The notes under the pieces were generated by a model, which was not told the origin of the DNA, did not search any database, and saw nothing but the letters and a program-made list of their open reading frames with translations. A DNA stretch of 64,000 nt from Streptomyces sp. Tu 3180 (GTDB lineage: Bacteria; Actinomycetota; Actinomycetes; Streptomycetales; Streptomycetaceae), in contig NZ_WOXS01000002.1 of the NCBI RefSeq assembly GCF_009852415.1, positions 1,178,001 through 1,242,000 of the forward strand, in the 5' to 3' direction. Position 1 is the first letter of the stretch. The number at the start of each line of letters is the position of its first letter. The position numbers were made by a program, and so were the translations under genes. Below, one piece after another: positions 1,332 through 15,908 of this stretch.

Positions 1332-3401
1332 TCAGGCCAGTCGGTCCAGGATCCGCTCCACTTCCGCGAGGATCGCCGCGCCGACCGGTTCCAGCCGCGC
1401 TCGCTCGTGCAGCAGGGCCCACGCGGCCCGGACGATCTCGGTGCGGTGCGCGAGGTACCCGCGGATGTCGGTGGTGGGCACCTCGGGGACGCCCTTGTCG
1501 ATCAGCAGTGAGGTGAGGTGGATCTCCCGGGCGAAGGAGTAGCAGCCGTGGAAGACGGCGGTCAGCGGCCGGTCGGCGTTCACCACGGGGCTGACGGCCC
1601 GGTCCTCGGGATTGGAGCACAGGGGCATCAGGTCGATCAGCGTGCTCATCCGGTTGTGGCCCGTCTCGTGGACCAGCGTCTGCGCCGCCATCAGCGCCGG
1701 ACGGGGACTGCTGACGATCTGGCCGCGGAAGGCGTGGATGCTGTAGTTGTGCGGCCGCAGCCCGGCCCACGGCATGGGCAGCAGGCGCTCGACGCACGAC
1801 CGCGTCTCCTCCCAGGCCTCCGGCCACACCGCGCGCAGCAGTTCCGCGGCCTCGGTGAACTCGTCGTGGAAGCGGGCCACGTCCGCCGGCTCGACGGAGG
1901 GCAGCACCTCGGTCGGCGGCAGGTGCTCGTCCAGCCAGTGGGAGGGGGCGGGCACGATCCAGGGGCCGTCGAGGACGCGTCCCAACGCCCCCGTGCCGGG
2001 CCCGTCCTCGGACAGGGCGACGGTGGTGCCGCCGCCGTCCCGGGCGATGACGGCACCGTCCGCCGCGACGCTCAGCGACCAGGTGCCGGTCGCCGAGCGC
2101 GCGGTGACCGCACGGCCCAGCCGGGGGACGGCCAGTCCCCCGTCGCGGTCCGCGAGGACCCGGATCTCGGGGACCGGCACCGCGCCGGCGACCGCCGCCA
2201 GTTCGGGCAGCAGGAAGAACGCGAGCCGGTGGGCGAGCGGGTCCTCCTGCCGGGCGACGGGCAGGTCGCTCGGGCCCTGCTTGGCCACCGCGATCCACGA
2301 GGTGATGTCGGGGCCGGCCAGCAACGCCTCCGGAGCGGTCCCGGAGGAAGCGGTGAGCGCCCGCGCGCAGGCCTGGTACAGCTCGCGCTCCGTCTCGCCG
2401 GCGGCCAGGGTGAAGCGCCGCAGCATCAGCTTCAGCAGGTCCCTCAGGTTCTTCCGGGCGAGCAGCGCGTTGAGCGGCGCGGCGCTGTCCGGCGGGCCGC
2501 CGGGCAGGACGAACCCGTCCACCGGGGGTTCGGGCGCCGAGGCGATGAACCGCTTCACCGTCGTCATGTCGATGTCGAGCCTGTCGACCGGTCCCCGTGC
2601 CGCGCGCATCGCCACTTCCCTCTCCGCCTTTCTCCTGGTCCGCTCGAGTGCGCCGCTGCTGCCGAGCGCCGTGACGGCCTCGGTCAGCCGTGCCTTCCTC
2701 AGCTCGGCGGTTCCGGGCCCGACCGGCAGCGGCCGGTGCCACGGCTCCTCGTGCCGCAGTTCGGCGCTCAGCGTGCGGTGCAGCGCCTGCCAGACCGTCC
2801 TGGCGTTCACCACCAGGCTGGCGCTGAGGCTGTCGCCCGCCGAGACGCCCCAGTGCCGCCACAGCAGCGGGATGTAGAGGACGTCACCGGGACCGAGGGT
2901 GAACTCCAGCGTGTCCCGCGACGGACCGTCCTGCGGCATCGGGGCGTCGCCCACGCCGGGTTCACCGAGCATGCGCAGCCGCCGCTGCTCCGGGTCCAGG
3001 GTGGCGGGCGAGGCCAGCCGCCACCGCTTCTCGCCCTCCAGCTGGATGGTGAAGTTGTCGCTGTTGTCGATGTGCGAGCCGATCGAGGAGCTGCCCTCGG
3101 TGAGGAACACGTCGCACCACACGTCGTCCCAGTCGAACTTCTCCCGGGCCGCCGCGCACAGTGCGGCCACACCCGGCAGTCCCTCGCGCAGCGCTTCGAG
3201 GAACCAGATGGACCGGCCGTCCGTCCGCACCCCGGTGGTGGCGGTGGCCAGCGCCCTGACCTCCTCGCGGCCGGGCGCCGGGGCGAGGAACATCCCCGCC
3301 GCGCCGCGGAGGACGACGGGTTCACGGCGCCACCGGGCGTCGAAGAACTCCTCGTCGAGCACTGCCAGCGGTTGCGGCCGCTGCGCCGCGGTTGCGTTCA
3401 T
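1332..3401 (-). CDS. JmjC (cupin) dioxygenase fused to a HExxH peptide-modification domain
   Basis: 689 residues; the ATG overlaps the upstream TGA (ATGA), so translation is probably coupled. Residues 1-210 form a JmjC/cupin_8 fold with the Fe(II) triad H110-x-D112 (SHIDNSDNF) and H183 (WRHWG). Residues about 260-689 match the HExxH putative peptide-modification region seen in RiPP pathways, with an intact H578-E-T-G-H582. JmjC proteins are Fe/2-oxoglutarate hydroxylases, and HExxH-type proteins have been linked to peptide beta-hydroxylation (from memory of the family). The protein could therefore carry out two oxidations on the precursor; target residues are unknown. It is last in the minus-strand maturation operon. 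A full-length paralogue at 11405-13468 keeps the JmjC triad but has lost HExxH. Confidence 0.8.
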   Translation of the reverse strand: MNATAAQRPQPLAVLDEEFFDARWRREPVVLRGAAGMFLAPAPGREEVRALATATTGVRTDGRSIWFLEALREGLPGVAALCAAAREKFDWDDVWCDVFLTEGSSSIGSHIDNSDNFTIQLEGEKRWRLASPATLDPEQRRLRMLGEPGVGDAPMPQDGPSRDTLEFTLGPGDVLYIPLLWRHWGVSAGDSLSASLVVNARTVWQALHRTLSAELRHEEPWHRPLPVGPGTAELRKARLTEAVTALGSSGALERTRRKAEREVAMRAARGPVDRLDIDMTTVKRFIASAPEPPVDGFVLPGGPPDSAAPLNALLARKNLRDLLKLMLRRFTLAAGETERELYQACARALTASSGTAPEALLAGPDITSWIAVAKQGPSDLPVARQEDPLAHRLAFFLLPELAAVAGAVPVPEIRVLADRDGGLAVPRLGRAVTARSATGTWSLSVAADGAVIARDGGGTTVALSEDGPGTGALGRVLDGPWIVPAPSHWLDEHLPPTEVLPSVEPADVARFHDEFTEAAELLRAVWPEAWEETRSCVERLLPMPWAGLRPHNYSIHAFRGQIVSSPRPALMAAQTLVHETGHNRMSTLIDLMPLCSNPEDRAVSPVVNADRPLTAVFHGCYSFAREIHLTSLLIDKGVPEVPTTDIRGYLAHRTEIVRAAWALLHERARLEPVGAAILAEVERILDRLA

Positions 3402-4621
3402 CCTGCCGCTCCTTTCCCGAGCAGCTGCTGCTGCGCGTCGATCTGCCGCGACAGCCACGGCTGCCGCTCGATTCCCAGACGGTCGCCGAGACCGGCCGCC
3501 AGCCGGGCCGCGTCGGCGTGGAGCGGATGGCTGCCGGCGAACTCGAGGAGGGCGCGATGGGCCTCTTCGTACGCCCCGGTCCGCAGGGTGCACAGCGCCG
3601 CCAGGAAGGAGGACTTGACCTCGATGGTGTCCGTCCGCTCCCCGGTGGCACGGCAGAACCACTCCCCGGCCGCCGCGAAGGACTCCGTCCGGTAGTGGGA
3701 CAGGCCGATTCCGTACGCCAGCCAGGAAGAGCGGCAGCCCGCTTCCGCCGCCTCGTGCCAGCACCGGCCCGCCTGGTCGACGTCGCCCGACGTGCGCAGG
3801 TGCAGCAGGCCCAGCAGGGCCGTGCCGACCGGGCCGAGCGGCGACAGCTCGGCCTCGTACCGGTCGAGCGGCACGGGGCCGCCGCCTTCGCCCCGCAGGG
3901 CGGTGAAGGTGGCCTCCGGCAGGGGGATCGCGTCCCGCTCGCGCTGCAGCGTCCCGCGTCCCAGTGCGCCGGCGAGGGCCGGGGCGAGATCGCGCCGGGC
4001 CTCCGGCAGGAAGCCGCTGCGCACCGAGTACGTCATGGAGTCGACGTTGCCGAGCAGGCCGTGCCGGTCCAGCAGGTCCAGGAGTTCGTCCGGCTGGTGG
4101 TCCTGCCCGGTGCGCACGTCGGCGAACCAGTCCAGGTCGAGGTCGACCCGGCTGTGCGGGTCCTGGGCGCCGGCGCCGAAGGTGGCGGGGGTGTGGATCA
4201 CCAGGTCGAGGCCGCAGACGCGGGTGTGCAGCGCGCCCAGTTCGTCGAAGCGGGTGGCGTCGAGGACGTCGGGCTCGGCCGCGATCGCACTGAGCGCACC
4301 GAGCAGTCTGCGCCTGGCGGCCGGCGAGTCCGCCTCCCGGGTGGCCCGCACCCACGTGAGCCTCGACACCAGGCCGAGCGCGGCGCCGGCCGCGTAGAAG
4401 TCGTCCAGGCCGTAGCTGCCCGCCACTTCCCTGATGGGCAGTCGGCGGTTCTCGGCCCCGATCGGCCCCTCGCCGTCCAGGTGTTCCAGCCGTGCGGCCG
4501 CCGCCCGGGCGAGCGGCTTGAGATCGAGGTGCCGGTCGAAGCAGACGACCGACTCCGAGCGGTAGCCCAGCCGCACCCAGCTCGCCACCACCTCGCCGTG
4601 TTCCTCGTGCAGTGCGATCAC
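3398..4621 (-). CDS. UPF0489/arginase-fold protein with helical-repeat tail, candidate peptide arginase
   Basis: 407 residues from a GTG that overlaps the previous stop (GTGA). The N-terminus has the UPF0489 layout: HEEHGEVVASW, then FDRHLDL (D29, H31, D33), then DLDLDWF near residue 170. These resemble the DxHxD and DxDxF metal-binding motifs of the arginase/deacetylase fold. RiPP peptide arginases of the OspR type, which turn Arg into ornithine, belong to this family. Residues about 275-400 look like TPR/SEL1-type helical repeats and may dock the leader peptide. The precursor core contains one Arg (R39), consistent with Arg-to-Orn conversion. That reaction is inference; a different amide or amidine hydrolysis is possible. 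Confidence 0.7.
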   Translation of the reverse strand: MIALHEEHGEVVASWVRLGYRSESVVCFDRHLDLKPLARAAAARLEHLDGEGPIGAENRRLPIREVAGSYGLDDFYAAGAALGLVSRLTWVRATREADSPAARRRLLGALSAIAAEPDVLDATRFDELGALHTRVCGLDLVIHTPATFGAGAQDPHSRVDLDLDWFADVRTGQDHQPDELLDLLDRHGLLGNVDSMTYSVRSGFLPEARRDLAPALAGALGRGTLQRERDAIPLPEATFTALRGEGGGPVPLDRYEAELSPLGPVGTALLGLLHLRTSGDVDQAGRCWHEAAEAGCRSSWLAYGIGLSHYRTESFAAAGEWFCRATGERTDTIEVKSSFLAALCTLRTGAYEEAHRALLEFAGSHPLHADAARLAAGLGDRLGIERQPWLSRQIDAQQQLLGKGAAG

Positions 4622-5382
4622 GGGACGAGTCCTTTCCCTCGGAGCACCGCACGGGCCCGGCCGACCCGCTCGGCGCGTTCACCGGCCGTCCAGGCCCGCA
4701 GCCAGCCCGGCCGGGGTTCGGTGCCCCACAGCAGGGCGGCGACCAGGGGGACGCTCAGCCCGCCGGTGAAGTACCGGCCCCCGCAGGCCACGAACACGGT
4801 CGGTGCCGTCGGCTCACGGTCCGGGTCGCGCAGCAGCCGGACGCCGTCCGTCCAGGCGGCCCAGGACCGTTCGCCGGTGCGGCGCAGGTGCGGGTGGCGG
4901 ATGAGGAAACCCGGCTCCGGGTGCCTGGCCAGGGTCTTGACCAGCGAGGCCAGCAGTTCCCGCTCGACCAGGAGGGCGGTGTCCGTGCCGCGGCCGGCCC
5001 GGTCGAGCAGGAATTCCCCGAACGCCTCGGTCACCGACCGGCCGCGCCGGAGGCCGAGCATGTCGACGTCGGAGCAGTGGTGCCCGCGCAGGAACTCCGC
5101 CACCGCGCGCTGCCCCGCGTTGTGCCGGTCCGGGTACAGCGCCCGCAGGCTGTGCTCGAAGTGCTCGCGCAGCGGTACACCGCCGATCGCGCCCTGTGCG
5201 ATGCCCTGGGTGAGTTCGTGCGAGACCCTGGCCAGTTGCTCGACGTCCACCTCGCGCAGTGCGGCCGGGGCGGCCGGGTCCACCGGGCCGACGCCGTCGA
5301 CTCCTCCGGTGCGCCGCGGGCTCGGGTAGCTGAGCCGGTGCTTGAACGCACGGTTCAGTTCGACGAGTTCGCCGCTGCCCAC
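4618..5382 (-). CDS. Probable MNIO partner protein with RRE-like C-terminus
   Basis: 254 residues from a GTG at 5382 that overlaps the end of the MNIO gene by 28 bp; its TGA overlaps the next GTG. No catalytic motif is visible. The C-terminal 80 residues (HPHLRRTGERSW..., then a strand and helices ending LRGKGLV) look like the winged-helix end of proteins that accompany DUF692/MNIO oxidases. Those partners bind the leader peptide and present the substrate (MbnC, TglI and similar). The assignment rests on position next to the MNIO gene plus this weak resemblance. Profile comparison against RRE and MNIO-partner models would settle it. Confidence 0.5.
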   Translation of the reverse strand: MGSGELVELNRAFKHRLSYPSPRRTGGVDGVGPVDPAAPAALREVDVEQLARVSHELTQGIAQGAIGGVPLREHFEHSLRALYPDRHNAGQRAVAEFLRGHHCSDVDMLGLRRGRSVTEAFGEFLLDRAGRGTDTALLVERELLASLVKTLARHPEPGFLIRHPHLRRTGERSWAAWTDGVRLLRDPDREPTAPTVFVACGGRYFTGGLSVPLVAALLWGTEPRPGWLRAWTAGERAERVGRARAVLRGKGLVP

Positions 5383-6338
5383 TGGTTCACCAACTTCCTC
5401 AGGCGTTCGAGGTTGGGAAGGCTCTTCGGCACCATCCGGCCCGACCTGTCGTAGTTGGGGTCCTCGTAGGTGACCGCTTCCAGCCGGGGGCACAGCTCCA
5501 GGAGCCGTTCCGCCAGGACCAGTTGCTCGTCCAGCAGGACACCGTGGTGCAGGTCCAGGAAGCGGTCGCGGCTGATCGCCGAGCCGGACAGGTGGAGTTC
5601 GGTGCACTGCGCCAGCGGCAGCCTGTCCAGGTCCGCGTACAGACCGGCTCCCCGCTCGCCCCGCCACCACCGCCAGCTCAGCAGGTGCCCCACGTCCAGG
5701 GTGACGTCGGTGCCGCTGAGTTCGGCGACCCGGCGGAAGAAGTCGTAGGCGTCCATGTCGCCCACCACCACCGTGACACCGTCGGTGAAGCCCGGGAACT
5801 CGACCCGCAGGACCGGGTCGAGTTCCCGCATCGCCTCGCGGATGCCGGCCGCGACGTGGGGGACGTTCTCCTCCACCAGGTAGGGCGGCAGGGGGTAGGG
5901 CATCGGTATGCCGCCGAGGGACCACATCCCCAGGTCCTCGACGACCCACTGCCAGTCGAAGTGCCGGTGCAGCTCGTTGGTGAACTCGTAGACCGGGCCG
6001 CGGTCGTAGGGCTCGACGGTGCCCAGGTTGAGCATGGTCTGGTGCAGGGCGACCGGGGTGCCGGCGGGAAGCTGCTCCATCAGGCGCCGGTAGGGCTCCA
6101 GGTAGTGCCCGGCCAGCAGCGGCACCGGCCCGCGGGGCTGGAAGGCGAAGGCGTAGTAGGCGTAGTCGGCGCCGTGACGGGCGAGGAAGTTGCGGACGCG
6201 TTCGTTGGGGCCGGGGTCGTCCGGGTCGAAACCGATCGGCGCTCCCCAGGGAAGGTCCATCCCGGCGCCCAGTCCCCGGCGTTCGGGGCGGCCCGCCCTG
6301 CCCGGGTGCGCCGTGGGTTCAGCTGTGGTCACCGACAT
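5355..6338 (-). CDS. DUF692-type multinuclear non-heme iron oxidase (MNIO)
   Basis: 327 residues; the ATG lies inside the end of the radical SAM gene (20-bp overlap). Motifs fit a divergent DUF692 TIM barrel: ALHQTMLNLG, a His/Glu-rich stretch NELHRHFDWQWVVEDLGMW, VTLDVGHLLSW, TELHLSGSAISRDRFLDLHHG and VTYEDPNYDRSG, supplying the His, Asp and Glu ligands of a two- or three-iron site. Known members oxidise peptide Cys (MbnB, TglH, ChrH) or a C-terminal Asp. The precursor here has no Cys and no Asp near its C-terminus, so the target must differ. It is translationally coupled to the partner gene downstream. Confidence 0.75.
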   Translation of the reverse strand: MSVTTAEPTAHPGRAGRPERRGLGAGMDLPWGAPIGFDPDDPGPNERVRNFLARHGADYAYYAFAFQPRGPVPLLAGHYLEPYRRLMEQLPAGTPVALHQTMLNLGTVEPYDRGPVYEFTNELHRHFDWQWVVEDLGMWSLGGIPMPYPLPPYLVEENVPHVAAGIREAMRELDPVLRVEFPGFTDGVTVVVGDMDAYDFFRRVAELSGTDVTLDVGHLLSWRWWRGERGAGLYADLDRLPLAQCTELHLSGSAISRDRFLDLHHGVLLDEQLVLAERLLELCPRLEAVTYEDPNYDRSGRMVPKSLPNLERLRKLVNQWAAANSSN

Positions 6339-8178
6339 CCGCCTCCTTCAGCAGGCCCAGCAGTCTGCGGCCGAGTTCGGTGCGCGCCGTCAGCCGGCGC
6401 GACGCGCCGGACGCCCGGAGGGTGACGTGTCCGGGCCCGATGCCGTACCGCATGCGCCAGCGCAGGTCGATCAGGCGTCCCCGCACGGGCACGACCCAGG
6501 GGTGCAGCACCAGTTCGTCGGCCGGCTTCGCACCGTCGGCCTTCTTCCACCGCGGGTGCTTCTCGTCGTTCTTGCCCGGCAGCACCACGCGCACCGTCTC
6601 GCGCAGCCAGTCGGCCCGTTCCTCGCGGGTGGGGCCCTCGTAGTCGATCACCCTGCCGTGCCGCCCGGCCAGATAGCTGAAGCCGCTGTTGGACTGGAGC
6701 TCGTCACCGTCCGCCAGCGTCAGTCCGGTGCGGTGACCGGGCTCGGCGGCCAGCAGCGACGTCGGTTCGGCGATCATCATCTGTGCGGCGTCGATGCCGA
6801 GCCGGGCCGAGTTGCGGACGAGGAACTCCCTGCTCGCCCGGGCCTCCTCCGCCGTCTCGCCCGGCAGGCCGCCCATGACGCTGAGCCGCAGCACGATGCC
6901 CGACTCGTCGAGCACCTCGACGATCCGCTGGTACAGGTCCGCCCGCACGCCCTTGTCGACGAGGTCGAGCAGCCGCTGGGAGTTGGTCTCGTAGCCGACG
7001 CTCATCAGCCGGCACCCGGCGTCGTGCATGCGCCGCACGAAGGCGCGGTCGGCGAGCAGGGGCTCCAGCCGGTTCCGGGTCGACCAGGTGAAGGTGTGAC
7101 CGCGGGCGCGCACCAGCTCGGCCGCGCCGAGCACGAGGCGCAGGTTGCAGTTCTCGTCCACGAACGCCACGAAGCGTGCGCCCGTCCGGCGCAGGGCGTG
7201 CTCCACGTGGTCGGCGAGTTGCTCCTGGGTGAGCTGCTGGTACCGGCCTCGGCTGCGGTTGCCGTAGGAGCAGAACGTGCAGCGTCCCCAGTAGCAGCCC
7301 ACGCAGGAGATGAGGGGGAGCTGCGGCTCGGGGCTCAGGTAGGAGGAGAAGGGCAGGCCGTCGAACTCGGGCGGCGGGTTGTCCGCGATGTGGTGCTCCG
7401 GCGCGGGAGAACTGCCGCGCGCGGTCACCAGTCCGGGCACTTCGTGGATCGGGCGGCCCGCCTCGACCGCTTCGGCCAGCCGGTGCAGCACCGCTTCGCC
7501 CTGGGTGGTGACGAGGGCGTCGACGTGGCCGAACGTCTCGGGCATGGCGGCCAGTTCCGCGCCGCGCATCATCAGCTGCTGTCCGCCGAGGACGACGATC
7601 GTCCCGGGAGCCCGCTGTTTCACCAGCCGCGCCATGCGGAAGGCGGGCACGAGCTGGCTGAAGTACGCGACGGAGACACCGAGGACGCGTGGCGGGTCGT
7701 CCGGGAGCAGGCCGAGGGTCAGCTCGTCGTGCTCGTGGGCGGCGAGGTCACCGGCCGGGGCCTGCGACTCGGCGAGGCGGAACACCTCGGACAGGCTCGT
7801 CGCCTGCCGGGTCAGCACGCTCCCCCGCAGCATGATGTCCAGCACGTTGTTGACCAGCCGGAAACCGACCTCGAACGGCAACGACGTGCTCTGCTTGCGG
7901 ACGACGGTCCGGTGCAGCAGCTCCTGCCGTTCCACCGCGAAGGACAGCAGCGCCTCGTCGAACTCGTCCAGTCCGCCCAGCCGCAGCCGTTCTCCCAGCA
8001 CCGCGGGGTCCAGGAGCCGGTGCGTCAGCGCGATGTTGAGATCGCTCTGGAGCGCCGTCACTCCGTGCCGGCGCAGGTAGGCGACCAGCATGGGCAGGCT
8101 GAGGTAGGGGAACAGACGTGCCTCGGTCACCCCGGGGAAGACCAGGTGCACCGCTGCCTGAGGTGTCCGCTGACGCAC
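6319..8178 (-). CDS. B12-binding-domain radical SAM enzyme of the RiPP cluster
   Basis: 619 residues from a GTG preceded by a strong GAGGAGG site. Residues about 1-230 form a Rossmann-like cobalamin-binding region (RVLGVSVAYFSQLVPAFRMA, then IVVLGGQQLM) without the classical DxHxxG. The radical SAM motif is GCYWGRCTFCSYG, with Cys spacing C-X4-C-X2-C, followed by SVGYETNSQRLL and the late barrel strand LRLSVMGGLPGET. Members of this class methylate unactivated carbons or form C-C bonds on peptides. Phe, His, Ala or Val of the core are plausible sites. It is the first maturation gene after the precursor and is separated from it by a hairpin at 8222-8263. Confidence 0.82.
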   Translation of the reverse strand: MRQRTPQAAVHLVFPGVTEARLFPYLSLPMLVAYLRRHGVTALQSDLNIALTHRLLDPAVLGERLRLGGLDEFDEALLSFAVERQELLHRTVVRKQSTSLPFEVGFRLVNNVLDIMLRGSVLTRQATSLSEVFRLAESQAPAGDLAAHEHDELTLGLLPDDPPRVLGVSVAYFSQLVPAFRMARLVKQRAPGTIVVLGGQQLMMRGAELAAMPETFGHVDALVTTQGEAVLHRLAEAVEAGRPIHEVPGLVTARGSSPAPEHHIADNPPPEFDGLPFSSYLSPEPQLPLISCVGCYWGRCTFCSYGNRSRGRYQQLTQEQLADHVEHALRRTGARFVAFVDENCNLRLVLGAAELVRARGHTFTWSTRNRLEPLLADRAFVRRMHDAGCRLMSVGYETNSQRLLDLVDKGVRADLYQRIVEVLDESGIVLRLSVMGGLPGETAEEARASREFLVRNSARLGIDAAQMMIAEPTSLLAAEPGHRTGLTLADGDELQSNSGFSYLAGRHGRVIDYEGPTREERADWLRETVRVVLPGKNDEKHPRWKKADGAKPADELVLHPWVVPVRGRLIDLRWRMRYGIGPGHVTLRASGASRRLTARTELGRRLLGLLKEADVGDHS

Positions 8179-8221
8179 CGCTCCTCCTCGTCGGGCCGGC
8201 GGGGTTCGGTCCGGGCGCCGT

Positions 8222-8263
8222 GGCCGGCGAGCCGGGCCCTTTCCGGGGACCCGCTCGCCGGCC
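8222..8263 (-). terminator. Strong hairpin between precursor and maturation genes (likely attenuator)
   Basis: The arms GGCCGGCGAGC (8222-8232) and GCTCGCCGGCC (8253-8263) are perfectly complementary, with additional GGG:CCC pairing inside. The hairpin begins 11 bases after the precursor stop and ends 43 bases before the radical SAM start. Partial terminators or stabilising stem-loops in this position are common in RiPP operons and let precursor mRNA exceed enzyme mRNA. There is no U-run, so it may stabilise RNA rather than stop transcription. Confidence 0.65.
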
Positions 8264-8274
8264 GCGGCCGTGGA

Positions 8275-8403
8275 TCAGACGGCGAAACGGAAGGCGTGGA
8301 ACGCCGCGCCGTCCTGGAGCTCGGCGGCCTCGACGACCTCGAGGCCGTCCAGCTCGGTCAGCAGGTCCTCGTTCACGTCCTGCTGGATCTGCTCTTCGTT
8401 CAT
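8275..8403 (-). CDS. RiPP precursor peptide, 42 residues
   Basis: ATG at 8403 with an AAAGGA site 6 bases upstream; TGA at 8275-8277. The N-terminal 30 residues are acidic and helical (MNEEQIQQDVNEDLL, then TELDGLEVVEAAEL), like a leader. The tail after D31-G32 is short and hydrophobic: AAFHAFRFAV at the C-terminus. Core residues of note are F35, H36, F38, R39 and F40. There is no Cys, Ser, Thr, Trp or Tyr in the tail, which excludes lanthipeptide or thiazole chemistry. The frame is open further upstream, but only this ATG has a ribosome site. The call rests on size, leader/core layout and position ahead of five maturation genes. Confidence 0.8.
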   Translation of the reverse strand: MNEEQIQQDVNEDLLTELDGLEVVEAAELQDGAAFHAFRFAV

Positions 8404-8494
8404 GGCAATTCCTTTCTCGACAGGCGAGGGACAGCGTGCGGACACACCGGACCCCACAACGGAGTATTTCCTCTCCCCGGTGAAACTCCGCGTT

Positions 8495-8528
8495 CGGAGA
8501 ATCCCTAATTCCGTTTCCGGAGAATCCC
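8495..8528. promoter_or_regulatory. Two direct CGGAGAATCCC repeats, candidate operator
   Basis: Identical 11-mers at 8495-8505 and 8518-8528 start 23 bp apart (about two helical turns). They lie 92-125 bp upstream of the precursor start codon. The spacing suits a dimeric activator upstream of a promoter. No -35/-10 pair was assigned with confidence. Confidence 0.4.
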
Positions 8529-8783
8529 GAAGAGGTTCGAGACGCCGTCGGACTGCCGGCACCGCGGGTGTTCCCACTCCCGGCCGTGCAGCCGTCCGGC
8601 GATTTCAATGAGGGATGCGATCGGTGAAGGTCCGGCCGCACCGGTGCGGCGGCGCGCGGAAAGGAGCCGTTGGAGCGCCGCGCTCACGACCCGGCGTGAA
8701 GACCCGGCCGGACCCGCGGTTCGCGCAGTCGGCGCCGCGTCTTCGCACGCCGTGGAGCAGCAGGAATCACAGGAAAGCCCCCC

Positions 8784-8861
8784 ATGGTCTCGCATCGCAC
8801 CACGTACGACGCCCCCGTCGAAGCCCGGCGGACGAGCTCCTGGGACGAAGACGCTAGATAG
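8784..8861 (+). CDS. Possible 25-residue small ORF in the divergent region
   Basis: The ATG at 8784 has AGGAAA upstream at a workable distance, and the frame ends at TAG 8859-8861. The product (MVSHRTTYDAPVEARR, then TSSWDEDAR) is hydrophilic and does not resemble the cluster precursor. It could be a leader ORF of the exporter operon, an unrelated small protein or chance. Weak support only. Confidence 0.2.
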   Translation: MVSHRTTYDAPVEARRTSSWDEDAR

Positions 8862-9141
8862 GCTTTTCGGGACTGTCAACGACCACTATCCGCCAGTGGA
8901 ACAGAATTCAACAATTACGGGAACTCCCTTGCACCGTGATGGGTGAAAATGCCCGCCGCACCACGGGGGCCGAACACGGAATGCCGTGACAGACGCGTGC
9001 ACCGCCCCGTAAGCTCGGCCGGCACCATCACGGAGCGACTGTCCTGAACGTGTCGGCCGAAAACAGTTCTGACGCGGCCCTGGGAATGCCGGCGCGACGC
9101 GAGCCGCGCCGGTCACCGAGGCGATCCATCGAGGGGGAATC

Positions 9142-10440
9142 GTGGGGCGTGGGCCCTTCTCGCATCCTGGTTACCGCTGGCTGTGGTCCGGCCAGCTGGT
9201 CAGCATCATCGGTGATCAGCTGTTCCCCATGGCCGTCGTCGCCCTGGCGCTGGGCCGGGAGGAGTCCGCCTTCTCGCTCGGCGTGGTCTTCGGCTCCCGG
9301 TTCTGCGCGCTCGCGCTGCTCATCCTGGTGGGCGGCGTGCTCGCCGACCGGATGGACAAGCTCCGCCTGATGATGTCCAGCGACGTGGTCCGGCTCGCCG
9401 CGGTGCTGCTGCTCATCGCCCTGGGCAACGGCGCCCCGTTGTGGACGCTGGCCCTCATCACCTTCCTGATGGGCGCCGGCGAGTCGATCTTCCAGCCGGC
9501 CTACGACTCCGTCGTGCCCTCCCTCGTGCCCGAACAGGTGCTGGAGCAGGCCAACGCCGCCACGAACATGCTGAAGAACATCGGCCAGGTCGTCGGCCCG
9601 GCCGGTGCCGGTCTGCTGGTGGCGGCGGTCGGCCCCCGCAACGCCCTGTGGGTCGACGCCGCGACCTTCGCCGTCTCCTCGCTCACCCTGCTCATGGTCG
9701 GCCGGCGGATGGGCGCGCGGCGCCAGCCCGCCGGCCGGCGCGAGGAGTCGATGTTCGCCGAGGCCGTCGCCGGCATCCGGGTGGTGGTCCGGATGCGCTG
9801 GCTGATGGCGCTCGAGACGATGGCCGTCGTCCACGTGCTGTTCGCCGTCGGCCCCTGGTTCGTCCTGGTCCCGCTGATCGCCGACGACCGGCTCGGCGGC
9901 CCGGCCGGATACGGGTTCGTGCTGTCCGCCTTCGCCCTCGGCGGCATCGGCGGCGCGGCGGCGGCGGGCCTGCTGCAGAAGCTGTTCCGGCGGCCGGGCC
10001 TGTGGGCGCTGGCCGCGATCGGCCTCTTCGGCGTGGCCTGCCTCGCCTTCTCGGTGACCTCGTCCCTCCCCCTGCTCGTCGCGCTGTTCGCCCTCGGGGG
10101 CGCGGGGGTGCAGTTCTTCGACGTGCTCAAGACGAGCGCCATCCAGCGGCACGTCCCCCGTGCGCTCCTGGGCCGCGTCTTCGCCCTCGACTTCTTCGCC
10201 TCCTTCGTCGGGATGCCGGCCGGGCAGATGCTGGCCGGTCTGCTGGTGGTGGGCGCGCAGCAGGCCGTCACCGCGATGGCCGTCGCCGGCGCCGTCGTCT
10301 TCGTGACCGCCTTGCTGCCCCTGGCCGTGCGTGACGTGGCGACCCTGGGCGGACCCGGCGCCGAGCCGCCCCCGGCAGACGGCGCGAAGCAGGCCGCCGG
10401 CCAGGTGGCTCCCGCCGCCGGGACCGGCGCGGCCGAATGA
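9142..10440 (+). CDS. MFS exporter, EntS-like, of the RiPP cluster
   Basis: 432 residues from a GTG preceded by GAGGGGG. About 12 hydrophobic segments are present. The loop motif VLADRMDKLRLMMSSD after helix 2 fits the MFS signature, and the overall pattern matches the enterobactin-exporter-like group of drug and siderophore efflux proteins. The C-terminal 40 residues are a Pro/Ala-rich cytosolic tail. It is the first gene of the divergent operon and overlaps the TldD gene by ATGA. Likely role: export of the mature peptide or self-protection. Confidence 0.85.
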   Translation: MGRGPFSHPGYRWLWSGQLVSIIGDQLFPMAVVALALGREESAFSLGVVFGSRFCALALLILVGGVLADRMDKLRLMMSSDVVRLAAVLLLIALGNGAPLWTLALITFLMGAGESIFQPAYDSVVPSLVPEQVLEQANAATNMLKNIGQVVGPAGAGLLVAAVGPRNALWVDAATFAVSSLTLLMVGRRMGARRQPAGRREESMFAEAVAGIRVVVRMRWLMALETMAVVHVLFAVGPWFVLVPLIADDRLGGPAGYGFVLSAFALGGIGGAAAAGLLQKLFRRPGLWALAAIGLFGVACLAFSVTSSLPLLVALFALGGAGVQFFDVLKTSAIQRHVPRALLGRVFALDFFASFVGMPAGQMLAGLLVVGAQQAVTAMAVAGAVVFVTALLPLAVRDVATLGGPGAEPPPADGAKQAAGQVAPAAGTGAAE

Positions 10441-11408
10441 GCACCACGGCCGGGACGCGGTCCGTGACCGCCGGACTGACCGCGTTGTGCGAGGCGTTGC
10501 CCGGGATGCGGGTCAAGGTGGAGAAGGACACCACGGGCTGGGCCGTGCTGGTGACCCACGAGGGCAAGGGCCTCGTCCAGTGGGGCGCCCGCTCGCCGGA
10601 CGCGGCCGGTCTGCGCGCGGTGCTGCTGTCCGAGGGGCTGGACTCGCTCCGCACCGACCTGGCCGCCGTCCGGGCGTCCAGCCCGTTGCCCGCCCGGACG
10701 GCCGCCCCCGTGGTGATGACGCCGCTGATGGCCGCCATCGCCGTGCACGAGTGCATCGGGCACACCAGCGAGGCCGACAACTACGCCGAGTACGGGCACC
10801 GGTTGGGTGTCGCCCTCGGGGACCGCTGGACCGGGGTCCCGCTGACGGTGACCGACGACCCCACCCGGCCGGGGCACTGCGGATCCTACGTCCGGGACGA
10901 CGAGGGCGTGGCGGCGGTCCCCGTCCGGCTCGTCGAGGACGGCCGCTGGAGCGGGCTGCTGACCAGCCGCGCCCACCCGGGCCCGGCCGGCGGCAACGGT
11001 CACGGCCGGCGCGCCCCCGGGGCCCGCGACGCGCTCCCCCGGATGGGCGTGCTGAGCGTGGGACCGGGCGAACACCGCGCCGAGGACCTCATCGCGTCGG
11101 TCGCGGACGGGTTCCTGCTCGGCGCCCCGCGCGAGGGCGGCTCGGTGCGCGAGTACGTCCTGCTCAAACCCGCCTGGGCCCGGCGGATCCGCGACGGCCG
11201 CGTCACCGGGGAGGTGTACACCGACCTGGTGATACGCGGCCGCAAGGCGCAGCTCATGAGAAGGCTGCGCGGCATCGGCGACCGCGTGGTGATGAACGAC
11301 CCGTACCACCGCTGCGCCAAGAAGGGCCAGGAGGTCCCGGTCTCCCTGGAAGCCCCGTACCTGCTCTTCGACGACCTGCTGCTCTATCCGGACGGAGGAA
11401 CACCATGA
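10437..11408 (+). CDS. TldD-type metalloprotease, short form, probable leader peptidase
   Basis: 323 residues, with ATGA overlaps at both ends. It carries the TldD zinc motif HECIGHTSEAD (HExxxH) near residue 103 and a late Cys in YHRCAKKGQEVPVSLEAPYLLFDDLLL, equivalent to the third zinc ligand of TldD. It is shorter than usual TldD (about 480 residues), mainly at the N-terminus. There is no TldE/PmbA partner next to it, although TldD/TldE normally act as a pair (microcin B17 leader removal). Here it probably degrades the precursor leader, alone or with a chromosomal partner. Confidence 0.75.
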   Translation: MSTTAGTRSVTAGLTALCEALPGMRVKVEKDTTGWAVLVTHEGKGLVQWGARSPDAAGLRAVLLSEGLDSLRTDLAAVRASSPLPARTAAPVVMTPLMAAIAVHECIGHTSEADNYAEYGHRLGVALGDRWTGVPLTVTDDPTRPGHCGSYVRDDEGVAAVPVRLVEDGRWSGLLTSRAHPGPAGGNGHGRRAPGARDALPRMGVLSVGPGEHRAEDLIASVADGFLLGAPREGGSVREYVLLKPAWARRIRDGRVTGEVYTDLVIRGRKAQLMRRLRGIGDRVVMNDPYHRCAKKGQEVPVSLEAPYLLFDDLLLYPDGGTP

Positions 11409-13468
11409 CGGAGTTCGTGAGGGGCTTGAGCTACGAACGGTTCCTGGCCGAGTACTGGCGCCGGAAGCCGCTGTTCGTCAAGGGCGGCGCGCACGACCTC
11501 CTGGAGCGGACGCTGAGCTACGAGGAGGCGGACGCGATCGTCGCGCAGGTCCGTGAGCGGGCACCCGACCGGCTCGCCTGCGACCCGGGGCGCATCGAGT
11601 TCGTCAAGGGGGCCGACGCGGTGAGCCCCGAGCTGGCCGGGCGCGCCGGTGAACTGCAGGCCAGGCTGGGATGGCCGAGGGTCACCTTCGACGTCTCGCG
11701 CACCCACGCGCCCGGCAGCATCGGCTGTCACTTCGACTACGACGACAACTTCACCCTCCAGCAGGACGGGAGCAAGGTCTGGCGCGTCGGCTCGCCCGCG
11801 GCCGTCCCGGAGGCGGACCGGCGCCGGCGCGTCCTGGAGGATCCGACGATCTCGGGGCAGTTCTACCTGACCGACGACTACGAGGAGTTCGTCGTCGAGG
11901 CCGGCGACCTGCTGTACATCCCGCTCTTCCACCCGCACTGGGGCACCTCGACCGGCCGTTCCCTCTCCCTGACGATGACCTGCAACCTGCTCACCCCGCT
12001 CACCGAACTCTGGCCGGTGCTCCGTGAGGAACTGTCCGGACTCCGGCAGTGGTGGCACCCCGCACCGTTGCCGGCCGTCCCGGACGAGCGGGCCCTCGAC
12101 GAACTCCTCGACACGCTCGCGGACCCGGCGGTGCGCCGGCGCGTCCTGGCCCGGTGGCGGGAGGCCCGCCGGCACGCGGTGGCCCACCACCGTCCCGAAC
12201 TGCGCCCGGCCCGCCCGGAGCCCGCCCGGGTCGACCCCGTGACGGTCGACGTCACACCGATCAAGCCGCTGTTCTCCACCGCCGGGCCCCCGGTCGGCCT
12301 CGAGGACGCGGCGCTGCCCGGAGAGGCGACCGCCCGGCTGGGCCCCCTCGTCGCCAAGCGGTACCTCAAACGGCTGCTCGTACTGGCGCGGGACCGGGCG
12401 GGCGTGTGCGGGGACGCCCGGCTCGCCGCGTCCGTCCAGGCGGTGGTGAACGGGCTCACGCGGCTGCCGCACCCGGTTCTCCTGGCCTGGTGCCGCAACC
12501 CCGAGGTCACGTCCTGGGTGCGGCAGGCGGAGCGCGAGCGCACGGCCGGCTACCGGCGCACCCCGGACACACTGCTCGGTCACCTCACGGCGTTCTGCCT
12601 GCCCGAACTGATCCGGCACCGGGTGCTCGAACCGGGCGCGTCGCTGGTGGCCGCCCTCAGCGGCCCGGAGGAACTGGCCCTTCCGTCGGCCGGCCGGGTG
12701 ATCGGGCTGCCGGAGGCGGCGGACGGGACGGTCGCGCCGGACGGGACGGACGGGACGGTCACGGTGCGGGTGGACGCACTCCACGCCGAAGTCGGTGGAG
12801 TGCGGCTGCCGTTGACGGACCTGACCGGTGAGACCGCGGGCCCGCGGGTGCGCGCGATGCCGGCCCTCGCGGACGACGGTCCCTACGTGCTGCCCGCGCA
12901 CTCCTGGTACACCGCCTTCCACCCGGCCGGCCACCGGTATCCGCACCCGCCGGCCGGGGAGCCCCTGGACGCGTTCCTGGCAACGGTGACGCAGGCCCTG
13001 GCCCTGGTCGAGAAGGTCTGGGCGCCGGCCGCCGAGGACATCCGCGACTCCCTGCGCCGGCTCGCCCCGGCGAACGCCCCGCTGCCCGAGAGCGCGCCCG
13101 CCTTCCGCGGCGCGGCCGTCGTGGGCGGCAGCGACCCCGTGCAGGCCGCCCGGCACCTGTGCCGGGCCGCGGCGTGCGCGCGCCACGACGCGCTCACCGA
13201 CCTGTACCGCCTGAGCGAGGAGCCGGGTGCCCTCGTGCACCCTTCCTCCGCCGGGGCCGGCGTGCCGGCCGCCGCCTTGCTGCGGGACACGTACGCGGCG
13301 GTGAACGAGCTGGAGTTCCTGCGGCGTCACGACTCGCCGGCGTCCGCCCCGGACCTGGCCGGACGGGTCGCCGGGTCCCTCGCCGCCCTGCGGCGCGACG
13401 GGCGTCTCACCTCCCACGGTCGTACGCTGCTCGCCGGGTTGTCCGCGCAGTCCCACCGGCCCGGGTGA
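11405..13468 (+). CDS. JmjC (cupin) protein with degenerate HExxH domain, paralogue of 1332-3401
   Basis: 687 residues; the ATG overlaps the TldD stop, with GGAGGA upstream. The JmjC triad is intact: H109-x-D111 (CHFDYDDNF) and H178 (HPHWG). The C-terminal half aligns with the HExxH protein at 1332-3401 (ITSWIAVAKQG versus VTSWVRQAERE; STLIDLM versus DALTDLY), but HETGH is replaced by RAAAC at residues 587-591. It should keep 2-oxoglutarate oxygenase activity while the second metal site is lost. It may hydroxylate a different residue, or act as a scaffold or partner for its paralogue. The two genes close the two arms of the cluster. Confidence 0.78.
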   Translation: MTEFVRGLSYERFLAEYWRRKPLFVKGGAHDLLERTLSYEEADAIVAQVRERAPDRLACDPGRIEFVKGADAVSPELAGRAGELQARLGWPRVTFDVSRTHAPGSIGCHFDYDDNFTLQQDGSKVWRVGSPAAVPEADRRRRVLEDPTISGQFYLTDDYEEFVVEAGDLLYIPLFHPHWGTSTGRSLSLTMTCNLLTPLTELWPVLREELSGLRQWWHPAPLPAVPDERALDELLDTLADPAVRRRVLARWREARRHAVAHHRPELRPARPEPARVDPVTVDVTPIKPLFSTAGPPVGLEDAALPGEATARLGPLVAKRYLKRLLVLARDRAGVCGDARLAASVQAVVNGLTRLPHPVLLAWCRNPEVTSWVRQAERERTAGYRRTPDTLLGHLTAFCLPELIRHRVLEPGASLVAALSGPEELALPSAGRVIGLPEAADGTVAPDGTDGTVTVRVDALHAEVGGVRLPLTDLTGETAGPRVRAMPALADDGPYVLPAHSWYTAFHPAGHRYPHPPAGEPLDAFLATVTQALALVEKVWAPAAEDIRDSLRRLAPANAPLPESAPAFRGAAVVGGSDPVQAARHLCRAAACARHDALTDLYRLSEEPGALVHPSSAGAGVPAAALLRDTYAAVNELEFLRRHDSPASAPDLAGRVAGSLAALRRDGRLTSHGRTLLAGLSAQSHRPG

Positions 13469-13597: not shown

Positions 13598-15109
13598 TCA
13601 GGCCAGGCCGCGCAGCGCCTCGCCGAGCGTCGCCACCCCTTCGGCGATGACCCCGGGCGGGGTGGCCGCGTAGCCGAGGACGAGGCCGGGGCGGCCGGGG
13701 AGCTGCCGGTGCCACGACAGCGGCTGGCACTTCACGCCCCGGGCGAGCGCGGCGGCGGCGAGTTCGGTGTCGGGCACCTCCGGCGCGTACGTGACGGTCA
13801 GGTGCAGGCCGGCCGCCGCGCCGTGCACGACCGCGCCCGGCAGGTGCTCGGCGACGGCGCCGATCATCGCGTCGCGGCGCCGCCGGTGACGGCCGCGGAG
13901 CAGCCGCAGATGCCGCTCCAGGTCGCCGGACCGCATCAGTTGGGCGAGCACCAGCTGCGGCAGCACGGCACTGCCCAGGTCGGCGAAGCGTTTCGCGTCG
14001 GTCAGCGCGTCGCGGTAACGGGGCGGCGGCACCACCCAGCCGATCCGCAGCGCGGGCGCGAGCAGCTTGGACACGCTGCCCATGTAGCACACCCGGTCGG
14101 CCAGCAACGCGCGCAGCGCGGGCACCGGCGGCCGGTCGTAGCGGTGCTCCGCGTCGTAGTCGTCCTCCACGATCAGCCCGCCGTCCCTCGCCCAGAGCAG
14201 CAGCTCGCGGCGGCGCTCGCCGCTGGTCACCACGCCGGTGGGGAACTGGTGGGCGGGCGTGAGCAGCACCGCGCGGGCGCCGGTGGCGCGCAGTGCGTCG
14301 ACGCGCACGCCGCCGTCGTCGACCGGCACCGGCGGGGTGGCCAGGGCGCCGTTCCGCAGGTGCTGGCGGGTGCCGAGCGAACCGGGGTCCTCGAGCGCGA
14401 CGCCGTCGATGCCGTCCGCCCGCAGCGCGGGGTGCAGCAGCGTGAGCGCCTGCGCGATGCCGGCGACGATCAGCACGTCGTCCGGCTCCACCCGGATGCC
14501 GCGGCCGGACGCCAGCCAGTCGGCGACGGCGCGGCGCAGCCGTGGGGCGCCGCGGGGGTCGCCGTAGCCGAGGTCCTCGGCGGACAGCCCGGCGAGCACG
14601 GCCCGTTCGGCGCGCAGCCAGGCCGCGCGGGGGAACACCGTGAGGTCGGGCCGGCCGGGGGTGAAGTCGATGCGCGCGGGGGCGGCGCGCAGCGCGTCGA
14701 AGACGCCGGCGCCGGGCTCGCCGGCGAACAGCGTGCCCGGCACGGCCCGGTCGGCGGCGACCGGCGCCGGGCCCCGGGACGGTCCGGTCCCGGAGGGCGC
14801 CACCGGCCGCGGGGGAGGTGCCGCGACCACCACCGTCCCACCGCGCCGGCGCCCCTCGACGTGGCCGTCCTCGGCCAGCCGCCGGTACGCCTCGGTGACC
14901 ACCCCGCGCGAGACGCGCAGTTCGGCGGCCAGCACCCGGGTGGGCGGCAGCCTGCTGCCCACCCCCAGCCGGCCGTCGGCTATCGCCTGCCGCAGCCGCC
15001 GGACCAGCCAGTCCGCCTTGCCGTCGGCGGGTACGTCGCCGGCGCCGAGCTGCAGGAAATCGGAGCCGTGGGCCGGGGATCCGCGGCCCGGCGACTCGGC
15101 TGCCGTCAT
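13598..15109 (-). CDS. MocR/PdxR-type GntR regulator with aminotransferase domain
   Basis: 503 residues from an ATG at 15109. Residues about 30-100 are a GntR winged helix (WLVRRLRQAIADGRLGVGSRLPPTRVLAAEL). Residues about 150-500 are a fold-type I PLP aminotransferase domain with the Schiff-base lysine in GSVSKLLAPALRIGW and the aspartate of VEDDYDAEHRY. MocR proteins sense PLP or amino-acid derivatives and usually control neighbouring genes. The divergent position of the regulated gene is not obvious here; the B3/B4-LysE pair upstream is on the same strand and is the closest candidate. Confidence 0.85.
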   Translation of the reverse strand: MTAAESPGRGSPAHGSDFLQLGAGDVPADGKADWLVRRLRQAIADGRLGVGSRLPPTRVLAAELRVSRGVVTEAYRRLAEDGHVEGRRRGGTVVVAAPPPRPVAPSGTGPSRGPAPVAADRAVPGTLFAGEPGAGVFDALRAAPARIDFTPGRPDLTVFPRAAWLRAERAVLAGLSAEDLGYGDPRGAPRLRRAVADWLASGRGIRVEPDDVLIVAGIAQALTLLHPALRADGIDGVALEDPGSLGTRQHLRNGALATPPVPVDDGGVRVDALRATGARAVLLTPAHQFPTGVVTSGERRRELLLWARDGGLIVEDDYDAEHRYDRPPVPALRALLADRVCYMGSVSKLLAPALRIGWVVPPPRYRDALTDAKRFADLGSAVLPQLVLAQLMRSGDLERHLRLLRGRHRRRRDAMIGAVAEHLPGAVVHGAAAGLHLTVTYAPEVPDTELAAAALARGVKCQPLSWHRQLPGRPGLVLGYAATPPGVIAEGVATLGEALRGLA

Positions 15110-15167
15110 GGGCACGGCGGCCGTCGCGCCCGCTGCCCGTCCTCCCTCGTCCACCGGGCCGATGGTG

Positions 15168-15908
15168 TCACAGGCCACGGCGGCCCGGGCGCGCCCGCCC
15201 GGGCTCCTCACCGCCGAAGACGAACTCCGGTGCGGACGGGGTGAGGACGGCCGCCACGGGGTCGGCCGGCCAGTGCGCCGCCAGCTCCTCGGCCACGGTC
15301 CCCAACAGCTCCGGCACGGCCTCGGCTCCGCCGTCGTGCAGGGCCTCCGCCACCACCAGGATCCGGCGGGTGCGCTCACCGACGGCGGAGTGGCCGCTCT
15401 GCCGGTTGGTCCAGCGGCGCGCGTGCGCCCGTCCGGCGGAGTCGACGAAGGTCACCTCGCCGGGTGCGGGGTGTTCGGTGGCGCCGCCGAAGGTCGTGTA
15501 GTGCTCGTCGCCGCGGGCGTGGCGCACCTCGAGCAGGGGGCCGGTGATGCGGTCGGCGTCGAGGACCGCCACCGGGACCGCGTAGGCGACCGAGATCGCG
15601 TTGCACAGGTCGACCACCGGATGGATGCGGGGCAGTTCCCCCTCCTTCCTCAACCTCCGCAGCAGCGACTCCGAGGCGCAGCGGTACTGCGTCGGTCTGA
15701 GCCCCATCCGGGAGAAGGCCCGCCGCCAGGCCAGCACTTCGGGGAACCGGCTCTCGCCGGAACCGGCCAGCCGGGCCGCGGCACGGGCGGTGTACTCGGC
15801 GACGCGTGGGCCGACGTCGGCGGCGGCGTCGACGCCGCTGGCCCGGAGCGCGCCGGCGACGAGTGCGGGGTGGTCGGACCAGATCGCGTCCGCGTGCCGG
15901 AAGCGCAT
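15168..15908 (-). CDS. B3/B4 tRNA-editing-domain protein
   Basis: 246 residues. The central part (SESLLRRLRKEGELPRIHPVVDLCNAISVAYAVPVAVLDADRI) matches free-standing proteins with the B3/B4 domain of phenylalanyl-tRNA synthetase beta. Such proteins may deacylate mischarged tRNA or bind amino acids; the exact role is unknown. The ATG follows the LysE stop with one base between, so both are in one operon. Pairing with an amino-acid exporter suggests disposal of a non-standard amino acid, which is inference. Confidence 0.75.
   Translation of the reverse strand: MRFRHADAIWSDHPALVAGALRASGVDAAADVGPRVAEYTARAAARLAGSGESRFPEVLAWRRAFSRMGLRPTQYRCASESLLRRLRKEGELPRIHPVVDLCNAISVAYAVPVAVLDADRITGPLLEVRHARGDEHYTTFGGATEHPAPGEVTFVDSAGRAHARRWTNRQSGHSAVGERTRRILVVAEALHDGGAEAVPELLGTVAEELAAHWPADPVAAVLTPSAPEFVFGGEEPGRARPGRRGL

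Follow-up and report, generated by a model that had tools for sequence, protein, structure and literature searches.

A probable biphenomycin-type gene cluster with a fused JmjC–HExxH protein in Streptomyces sp. Tu 3180

What peptide would be made by a gene cluster that places one short precursor gene among a radical S-adenosylmethionine (SAM) enzyme, an iron-dependent oxidase, an arginase-like protein and two large JmjC proteins? Such a cluster occupies positions 1332–13468 of a 64,000-nucleotide stretch (hereafter the window; contig NZ_WOXS01000002.1) that sits within the 8.63 Mb genome of Streptomyces sp. Tu 3180. We propose, with a probability of about 0.93 and from sequence comparison, that the window holds a biphenomycin-type cluster for a ribosomally synthesized and post-translationally modified peptide (RiPP), in which the FRF tripeptide of the precursor would be turned into a ring of cross-linked ortho-tyrosine (o-Tyr), hydroxy-ornithine and hydroxy-o-Tyr, cut out and exported. 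The assignment follows from an FHAFRF precursor together with a counterpart for each of the eight Bip proteins described, and these counterparts bear out a preliminary description of the window, which had proposed a complete RiPP cluster around a 42-residue precursor. As far as the literature searched goes, the novelty here lies in how the oxygenases are built and in the Ala-Val tail of the core; the pathway itself is known.

The precursor gene (8275–8403, minus strand) encodes the 42-residue peptide MNEEQIQQDVNEDLLTELDGLEVVEAAELQDGAAFHAFRFAV, a leader followed by AFHAFRF-AV. The FHAFRF signature stands near the C terminus, which ends LQDGAAFHAFRFAV; its codons lie at 8284–8301 (minus strand), with the predicted macrocycle FRF at 8284–8292. 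Across the 8.63 Mb genome this codon pattern is found a single time, and a reversed control pattern is absent. The last 14 residues, including the ending FRFAV, are identical in the precursor of Rhodococcus sp. 1168 (locus L003). The comparison of gene neighbourhoods that the preliminary description had suggested came out in favour of the cluster: the precursor is conserved beside the radical SAM gene in other genomes.

The same set of enzymes acting on FHAFRF precursors is described in two pathway studies of 2025 (PMC12707348, PMC12257519), which are cited here from the excerpts available. The bip cluster comprises the precursor BipA, the major facilitator superfamily (MFS) protein BipB, the arginase BipC, the B12-dependent radical SAM enzyme BipD, the multinuclear non-haem iron-dependent oxidative enzyme (MNIO) BipE and its partner BipF, the JmjC ornithine hydroxylase BipG, the α-ketoglutarate (αKG)-HExxH hydroxylase BipH and the TldD-type protease BipI (PMC12707348). 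The pbs cluster carries out the same chemistry, and FHAFRF is named as the conserved precursor motif (PMC12257519). These two papers rule out a class without a described relative, and the earlier view that this combination of enzymes belongs to no peptide class yet described has to be given up. More than 1,000 similar pathways are reported in public genomes, so that finding another is no surprise in itself; the compounds act strongly on Gram-positive bacteria, and their titres are very low (PMC12707348).

Every gene of the cluster is an open frame at the place given by the preliminary description, and profiles confirm the families (JmjC_2, PF05114, PF04055, PF05977, PF19289 and TIGR04267). The B12-type radical SAM enzyme (BipD-type; 6319–8178, minus strand; 619 residues; PF04055, E 5.5e-14) would be the likely catalyst that joins the two o-Tyr rings. 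It carries GCYWGRCTFC, the window's version of a motif, GCYWG[RK]CxFC, present in nine of nine aligned rows; the B12-binding profile PF02310 stayed below cut-off in the Pfam search. A methylating B12-radical SAM enzyme, suggested by the best NCBIfam matches, was rejected, as none of these matches came near its cut-off and both BipD and PbsB are described as cross-linking enzymes. The MNIO (DUF692, BipE-type; 5355–6338, minus strand; 327 residues; PF05114, E 2.2e-13) would probably ortho-hydroxylate both Phe residues of FRF. It is 74% identical to its Rhodococcus counterpart and 47–56% identical to those of other loci, and H99, E134, D135, D215, H218, E247, H249, H264, H265, E292 and D293 are among the residues invariant in nine rows. 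We take some of these His, Asp and Glu residues to bind iron. A PDB sequence search with the MNIO returned nothing. A second MNIO is encoded elsewhere in the same genome (G000:C2:6416178-6416972, L001), and its closest model is the bufferin maturase BufB, below cut-off.

Directly after the MNIO gene lies a frame of about 254 residues with a GTG start (4618–5382, minus strand), which by this position and by its similarity to the Rhodococcus partner (52%) is a putative BipF-type MNIO partner; Pfam and NCBIfam gave no match to it. The candidate peptide arginase (BipC-type; 3398–4621, minus strand; 407 residues), which would convert Arg to ornithine, combines a UPF0489-like N terminus with a TPR-like C terminus and contains the motifs EEHGE, DRHLD and DLDLD, the last replacing DIDLD by one conservative change. 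EEHGE is kept in loci L003, L023, L024 and L028 and reads PEHGH in L015 and L016. A PDB sequence search with the arginase found TPR proteins and, at 0.67, a single malate dehydrogenase. On the plus strand, the exporter (BipB-type; 9142–10440; MFS_3 PF05977, E 1.1e-35) is 56% identical to that of the Rhodococcus cluster. The TldD-type protease (BipI-type; 10437–11408, plus strand; PF19289, E 9.5e-25) carries the motif HECIGH, within an HExxxH kept in six of six aligned rows, and would be likely to trim leader and follower. The match is to the C-terminal domain PF19289 and not to the rest of TldD, so the earlier label of TldD protease stands for that domain and no further. At E 1e-5 this protein is the genome's sole TldD-like match, and no second (TldE) match was found.

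The two large proteins set the window apart. Protein H (BipH-type; 1332–3401, minus strand; 689 residues) is an N-terminal JmjC domain fused to a C-terminal αKG-HExxH domain, with both metal motifs intact: HID at residues 110–112 (3066–3074, minus strand), with the distal His in RHWG (2847–2858), and HETGH at residues 578–582 (1656–1670, minus strand), in a domain that matches mod_HExxH TIGR04267 at E 3.5e-18. HID and the distal His are presumably the JmjC iron ligands. Protein G (BipG-type; 11405–13468, plus strand; 687 residues) pairs an intact JmjC domain with an HExxH-fold domain that has lost its motif, RAAAC at residues 587–591 (13163–13177, plus strand) aligning with the HExxH of relatives at a lost metal site. 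The JmjC_2 profile is found in both H and G (7.5e-18 and 1.1e-13), and in the alignment both JmjC domains keep the HxD...H ligand motif. No TIGR04267 or other NCBIfam match was obtained in G at E 1, and the related proteins P0016 and P0017 do match TIGR04267. Two active HExxH enzymes are ruled out by RAAAC in the alignment and by the missing TIGR04267 match; of the two JmjC proteins with HExxH domains that had been announced, H is intact and G has lost the motif.

The HExxH half of G is thus likely a dead homologue of the TIGR04267 hydroxylases and not a member of the family. The motif is also lost in all three close relatives and is intact in two more distant ones (P0016, P0017). A structure model keeps the HExxH fold in this dead half, which partly reflects the intact relatives in the alignment (A1) with which the model was built. 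Between the window and NPDC013455, the JmjC part of G is 92% identical and the zincin part 67%; this difference, together with the kept ligands, indicates that the JmjC domain of G is under constraint. Three intact αKG-oxygenase sites are therefore predicted in the window, against two needed for biphenomycin A.

How widespread is this architecture? The protein database searches with H and with G each scored the 7994 candidates sharing most words, so that the lists of relatives are lower bounds. For H they contain at least three proteins at 83–85% identity, at least one at 62%, at least two at 40–42% and two weak ones; among the matches listed, five of the six closest outside proteins (73–85% to H or G) are assigned to Streptomyces sp. 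by their sources, and P0006 (HExxH part only, 63%) and P0009 (483 residues, no HExxH) are partial relatives of H. A whole-length match to H was found in its own genome only, among 199 relatives and 394 family genomes. In total 17 proteins were found, two of them the window's own; alignment A1 holds 12 and A2 15 of the 17, P0009 entering the JmjC tree only, P0010 the HExxH tree only and P0011 neither. For L015 and L016, the motif-less C-terminal half gives a match of 97.8% to the G half of the window, of 91.0% to G-type intact HExxH domains and of 51.6% to H-type intact ones, this last value making a common origin of the motif-less halves less certain. In the HExxH tree, the intact G-type domains of P0016 and P0017 fall on the side of H, away from the decayed ones (98/100), a placement that we tentatively read as long-branch behaviour of the decayed copies. 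P0006 (Amycolatopsis nigrescens; 420 residues), an HExxH protein without JmjC, groups inside the fused H clade (99/96 with NPDC056716); either its JmjC half was lost or its start is misannotated.

In other genera of the family, L043 (2981-4984) and L044 (8800-10848) encode JmjC proteins about 40% identical to H whose C-terminal half lacks the HExxH motif. The 15 and 20 kb read there yielded neither an MNIO nor an FHxFxF precursor, and in L043 there is a radical SAM gene with about 31% similarity to BipD. A JmjC domain with a motif-less half is hence not restricted to biphenomycin clusters, and these proteins possibly belong to other peptide pathways with the same JmjC build.

The loci that share the FRF core form a census of eight: the window, L003, L015, L016, L023, L024, L028 and L045. 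A search of the genus sample with the radical SAM enzyme gave matches at E 1e-60 in 11 of 392 genomes. Among the ten other than our own, four carry FHAFRF beside the cluster (L015, L016, L023, L024) and four carry YHxYxY (L017–L020); in the remaining two (L021, L022; same genus), no FHxFxF or YHxYxY precursor was found in about 20 kb, and a BipD-like radical SAM gene (about 40%) lies beside a second, more distant one (26%). The same query matched one of 396 genomes in the phylum sample, the window's own. The MNIO query matched three of 394 in the class sample (our own, G222 and the further FHAFRF locus L028), L045 came from the family sample, and the plasmid collection gave one distant Rhizobium match only. 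The arginase gene is present in all eight FRF loci, and none was found in the four YHxYxY loci within the stretch read, a split likewise reported for the set of that study itself (PMC12257519, excerpts).

Oxygenases vary across the eight. The window is the sole locus with two JmjC proteins, and its one intact HExxH is fused. L003 has no JmjC and one stand-alone HExxH; in L015 the only JmjC protein ends in a motif-less half and the cluster lacks HExxH; L016 combines a JmjC of this motif-less build with one separate HExxH; L023 has JmjC and HExxH as separate proteins; and L024, L028 and L045 have JmjC only, the match of L028 to G running over one TGA. Further TIGR04267 matches in G219, G304, G222 and G355, away from biphenomycin genes, were left out of the census. 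In G304, the genome of L016, a second and stronger TIGR04267 match (G304:C3:2410546-2411049; 176 bits; 921-residue open frame) lies about 7.5 kb from the FHAFRF precursor and is perhaps part of a neighbouring peptide cluster. A JmjC match in G084 had no other cluster gene and no precursor in the 20 kb read.

What, then, would the enzymes of the window do? The order of reactions is taken from PMC12707348 and PMC12257519, from which we infer every reaction in the window organism. The MNIO and its partner would ortho-hydroxylate both Phe residues to give two o-Tyr; the arginase would convert the Arg between them to ornithine; the B12-radical SAM enzyme would form the biaryl bond between the two o-Tyr rings; a JmjC domain would place the γ-hydroxyl on ornithine; and the HExxH domain of H would place the β-hydroxyl on the last o-Tyr. 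The TldD protein would then remove the leader and the Ala-Val tail, and the MFS protein would export the product. For the JmjC step, our guess from domain build alone is that G would be the ornithine hydroxylase, leaving the JmjC half of H as an extra oxygenase without an assigned target; the probability of about 0.93 applies to the pathway and does not extend to this guess. G is favoured because the only JmjC of L015 has the same motif-less build; the opposite assignment, with the JmjC domain of H acting on ornithine, is nearly as likely. If all three αKG sites of this pair were live, the fusion would lead to a biphenomycin with a third hydroxyl (calculated neutral mass 504.186, versus 488.191 for biphenomycin A), and the dead half of G would serve as a scaffold presenting the peptide to the JmjC site. 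We hold this extended product to be a tentative and rather unlikely outcome.

A simpler division of labour, to which we give somewhat less than even odds, is that H alone performs both hydroxylations, ornithine γ by its JmjC and o-Tyr β by its HExxH domain, with G redundant or a helper and plain biphenomycin A as product. The two activities of H would be exactly those of BipG plus BipH, a fusion would couple them, and of the two sites in G one is already gone. Yet the JmjC domain of G keeps its ligands and is better conserved in NPDC013455 than the zincin part, as expected under constraint, and the only G-like protein of L015 is itself a JmjC with a motif-less C-terminal half. It is improbable, though worth weighing, that the cluster makes a biphenomycin relative differing in its ends, for instance one keeping the Ala-Val tail, which would raise the calculated mass by 170.106. 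The tail reads AV in place of RS, KN, KNIV or KSL..., it is identical in the window and Rhodococcus, and the enzymes have diverged to 32–48% identity; in the excerpts available, biphenomycin C retains its Arg-Ser tail (PMC12707348) and C-terminal trimming by PbsP was not seen (PMC12257519). However, FRF and its flank are unchanged, and BipI is reported to trim widely differing tails (PMC12707348). A dead cluster, its genes present without a product, we consider very improbable: one HExxH site is lost and known titres are very low, but all frames are open, the other metal motifs are kept, and the HExxH loss, being common to the window and all three close relatives, is old and tolerated and not a recent breakage.

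Several observations weigh against the biphenomycin assignment, against G as its ornithine hydroxylase, or against the novelty of the locus. Identity to the bip-like locus L023 is just 32–48%. The window's MNIO partner compares weakly with the partner frame of L023 (28%; E 5e-5 by blastp against a small database), and phmmer finds nothing. Pfam gives no UPF0489 (PF12640) match in the window arginase or in those of L023, L024 and L016, and the Rhodococcus counterpart reaches E 0.21, below cut-off; the earlier UPF0489 arginase-like label therefore holds at the level of its motifs and not of the profile. The JmjC domains of L023 and L024 lie a little closer to H (35–37%) than to G (32–33%), which also speaks for H doing both reactions; those of L015 and L016 are equally near both (41–43% to G, 42–44% to H), and in the JmjC tree the deep branching order stays unsettled (support 42/8), with long branches flagged. 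No match to G was found anywhere in the Rhodococcus sp. 1168 genome at E 1e-6; as that genome has the same core, part of the Rhodococcus-bearing branch may lack ornithine hydroxylation, and the Rhodococcus product is predicted to be without the JmjC-made hydroxyl. The window cluster may also already be among the hits in the supplements of PMC12707348 and PMC12257519. We nevertheless retain the biphenomycin-type assignment, with G as the favoured ornithine hydroxylase.

The genes form two divergent units around the precursor. The minus-strand unit runs from the precursor through the B12-type radical SAM enzyme, MNIO, MNIO partner and arginase to H, and the plus-strand unit from the exporter through the TldD-type protease to G. 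In agreement with the preliminary description, genes overlap within the units and the precursor stands apart: overlaps span 4–28 nt (20 nt for radical SAM/MNIO; 28 nt for MNIO/partner, where the GTG start of the partner is our choice; 4 nt for partner/arginase, arginase/H, MFS/TldD and TldD/G), and the precursor gene, which has no overlap, ends 96 nt ahead of the radical SAM gene. A strong hairpin lies between these two (8217–8269, minus strand). The 111-nt stretch folds with a minimum free energy of −65.3 kcal/mol (z −1.99; equalled or bettered by 8 of 200 shuffles), and an Rfam search gave no family reaching its gathering score, hairpin included. As a possible attenuator, it would suit partial readthrough, with precursor messenger RNA in excess of enzyme messenger RNA. 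No short reading frame listed in the 738-nt gap between the units resembles a further precursor, and a promoter scan of 8150–9200 found no promoter-like site and one terminator-like site versus 0.7 expected. Two flanking genes were considered as cluster parts and rejected, both lying outside the overlapping units with nothing in their favour: a gene for a MerR-type regulator fused to HEAT repeats (125–1129), just past the cluster end, and a GntR/aminotransferase gene (within 13598–15379).

Being diverged and having its own hydroxylase set, the cluster may yield new congeners as well as enzymes for the FRF-AV core. The census also amounts to a natural experiment on one FRF core, in which hydroxyls could be assigned to domains by comparing the products of Rhodococcus, with HExxH but no JmjC found; of L024, L028 and L045, with JmjC alone; of L023, with the two as separate proteins; and of the window, with the two fused and a further JmjC. 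In the literature searched, which covered the available parts of the papers and not their supplements, the JmjC–HExxH fusion is undescribed: the two biphenomycin papers, the only relevant ones among the matches listed in which JmjC and HExxH occur together, show separate proteins, and the parts of PMC12636437, PMC12452194, PMC12703449 and PMC13174530 consulted do not mention it. A literature search on SjiH returned nothing relevant.

How does the window compare with known systems? The ribosomal-oxygenase JmjC proteins YcfD and NO66 carry C-terminal domains other than those of the window's JmjC proteins. Their PDB titles have them acting on ribosomal proteins. The αKG-HExxH peptide β-hydroxylases (ChlB-HExxH, 8s5f; TIGR04267) differ in that the window's domain is fused to JmjC and that the motif is gone from G. 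The cluster of Rhodococcus sp. 1168 (L003, NZ_MKKY01000091.1; radical SAM 56%, MNIO 74%, HExxH domain 46–47%) is the closest relative that bears a name, and relatives of seven of the eight window proteins lie next to its precursor; there all genes run in one direction and the HExxH protein stands alone (428 residues), whereas the window is divergent and fused.

The pbs cluster of Peribacillus simplex BE23 shares FHAFRF, an MNIO, an arginase, a B12-radical SAM enzyme, the JmjC-related PbsQ and the TldD-type PbsP; its MNIO partner, which bears a RiPP recognition element, would correspond to the putative partner of the window. It has four precursors and no HExxH enzyme, in contrast to the one precursor and the HExxH domain of the window (PMC12257519, excerpts). 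The αKG-HExxH hydroxylase is present in bip and bpm, absent from pbs, and present in the window (TIGR04267, HETGH). The bip cluster (Streptomyces griseorubiginosus No. 43708) and the bpm cluster (NRRL 3217) for biphenomycins A–C, on the available parts of PMC12707348 and PMC12257519, have the same FHAFRF precursor (41 residues there, 42 here) and share with the window MFS, arginase, B12-radical SAM, MNIO, JmjC, αKG-HExxH and TldD proteins, their MNIO partner having a putative counterpart here. L023, whose 41-residue precursor ends in FRFRS and whose genes run from A to I as reported for Sg_bip, is our stand-in for the characterized bip cluster, to which the following identities refer: radical SAM 33%, MNIO 48%, arginase 34%, TldD 42%, MFS 32%, JmjC 34–37% and HExxH 35%. 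The bip and bpm genes form one operon from A to I, with an Arg-Ser tail and one JmjC protein separate from HExxH, whereas the window has two divergent units, an Ala-Val tail, a JmjC fused to HExxH and a second JmjC with a motif-less half.

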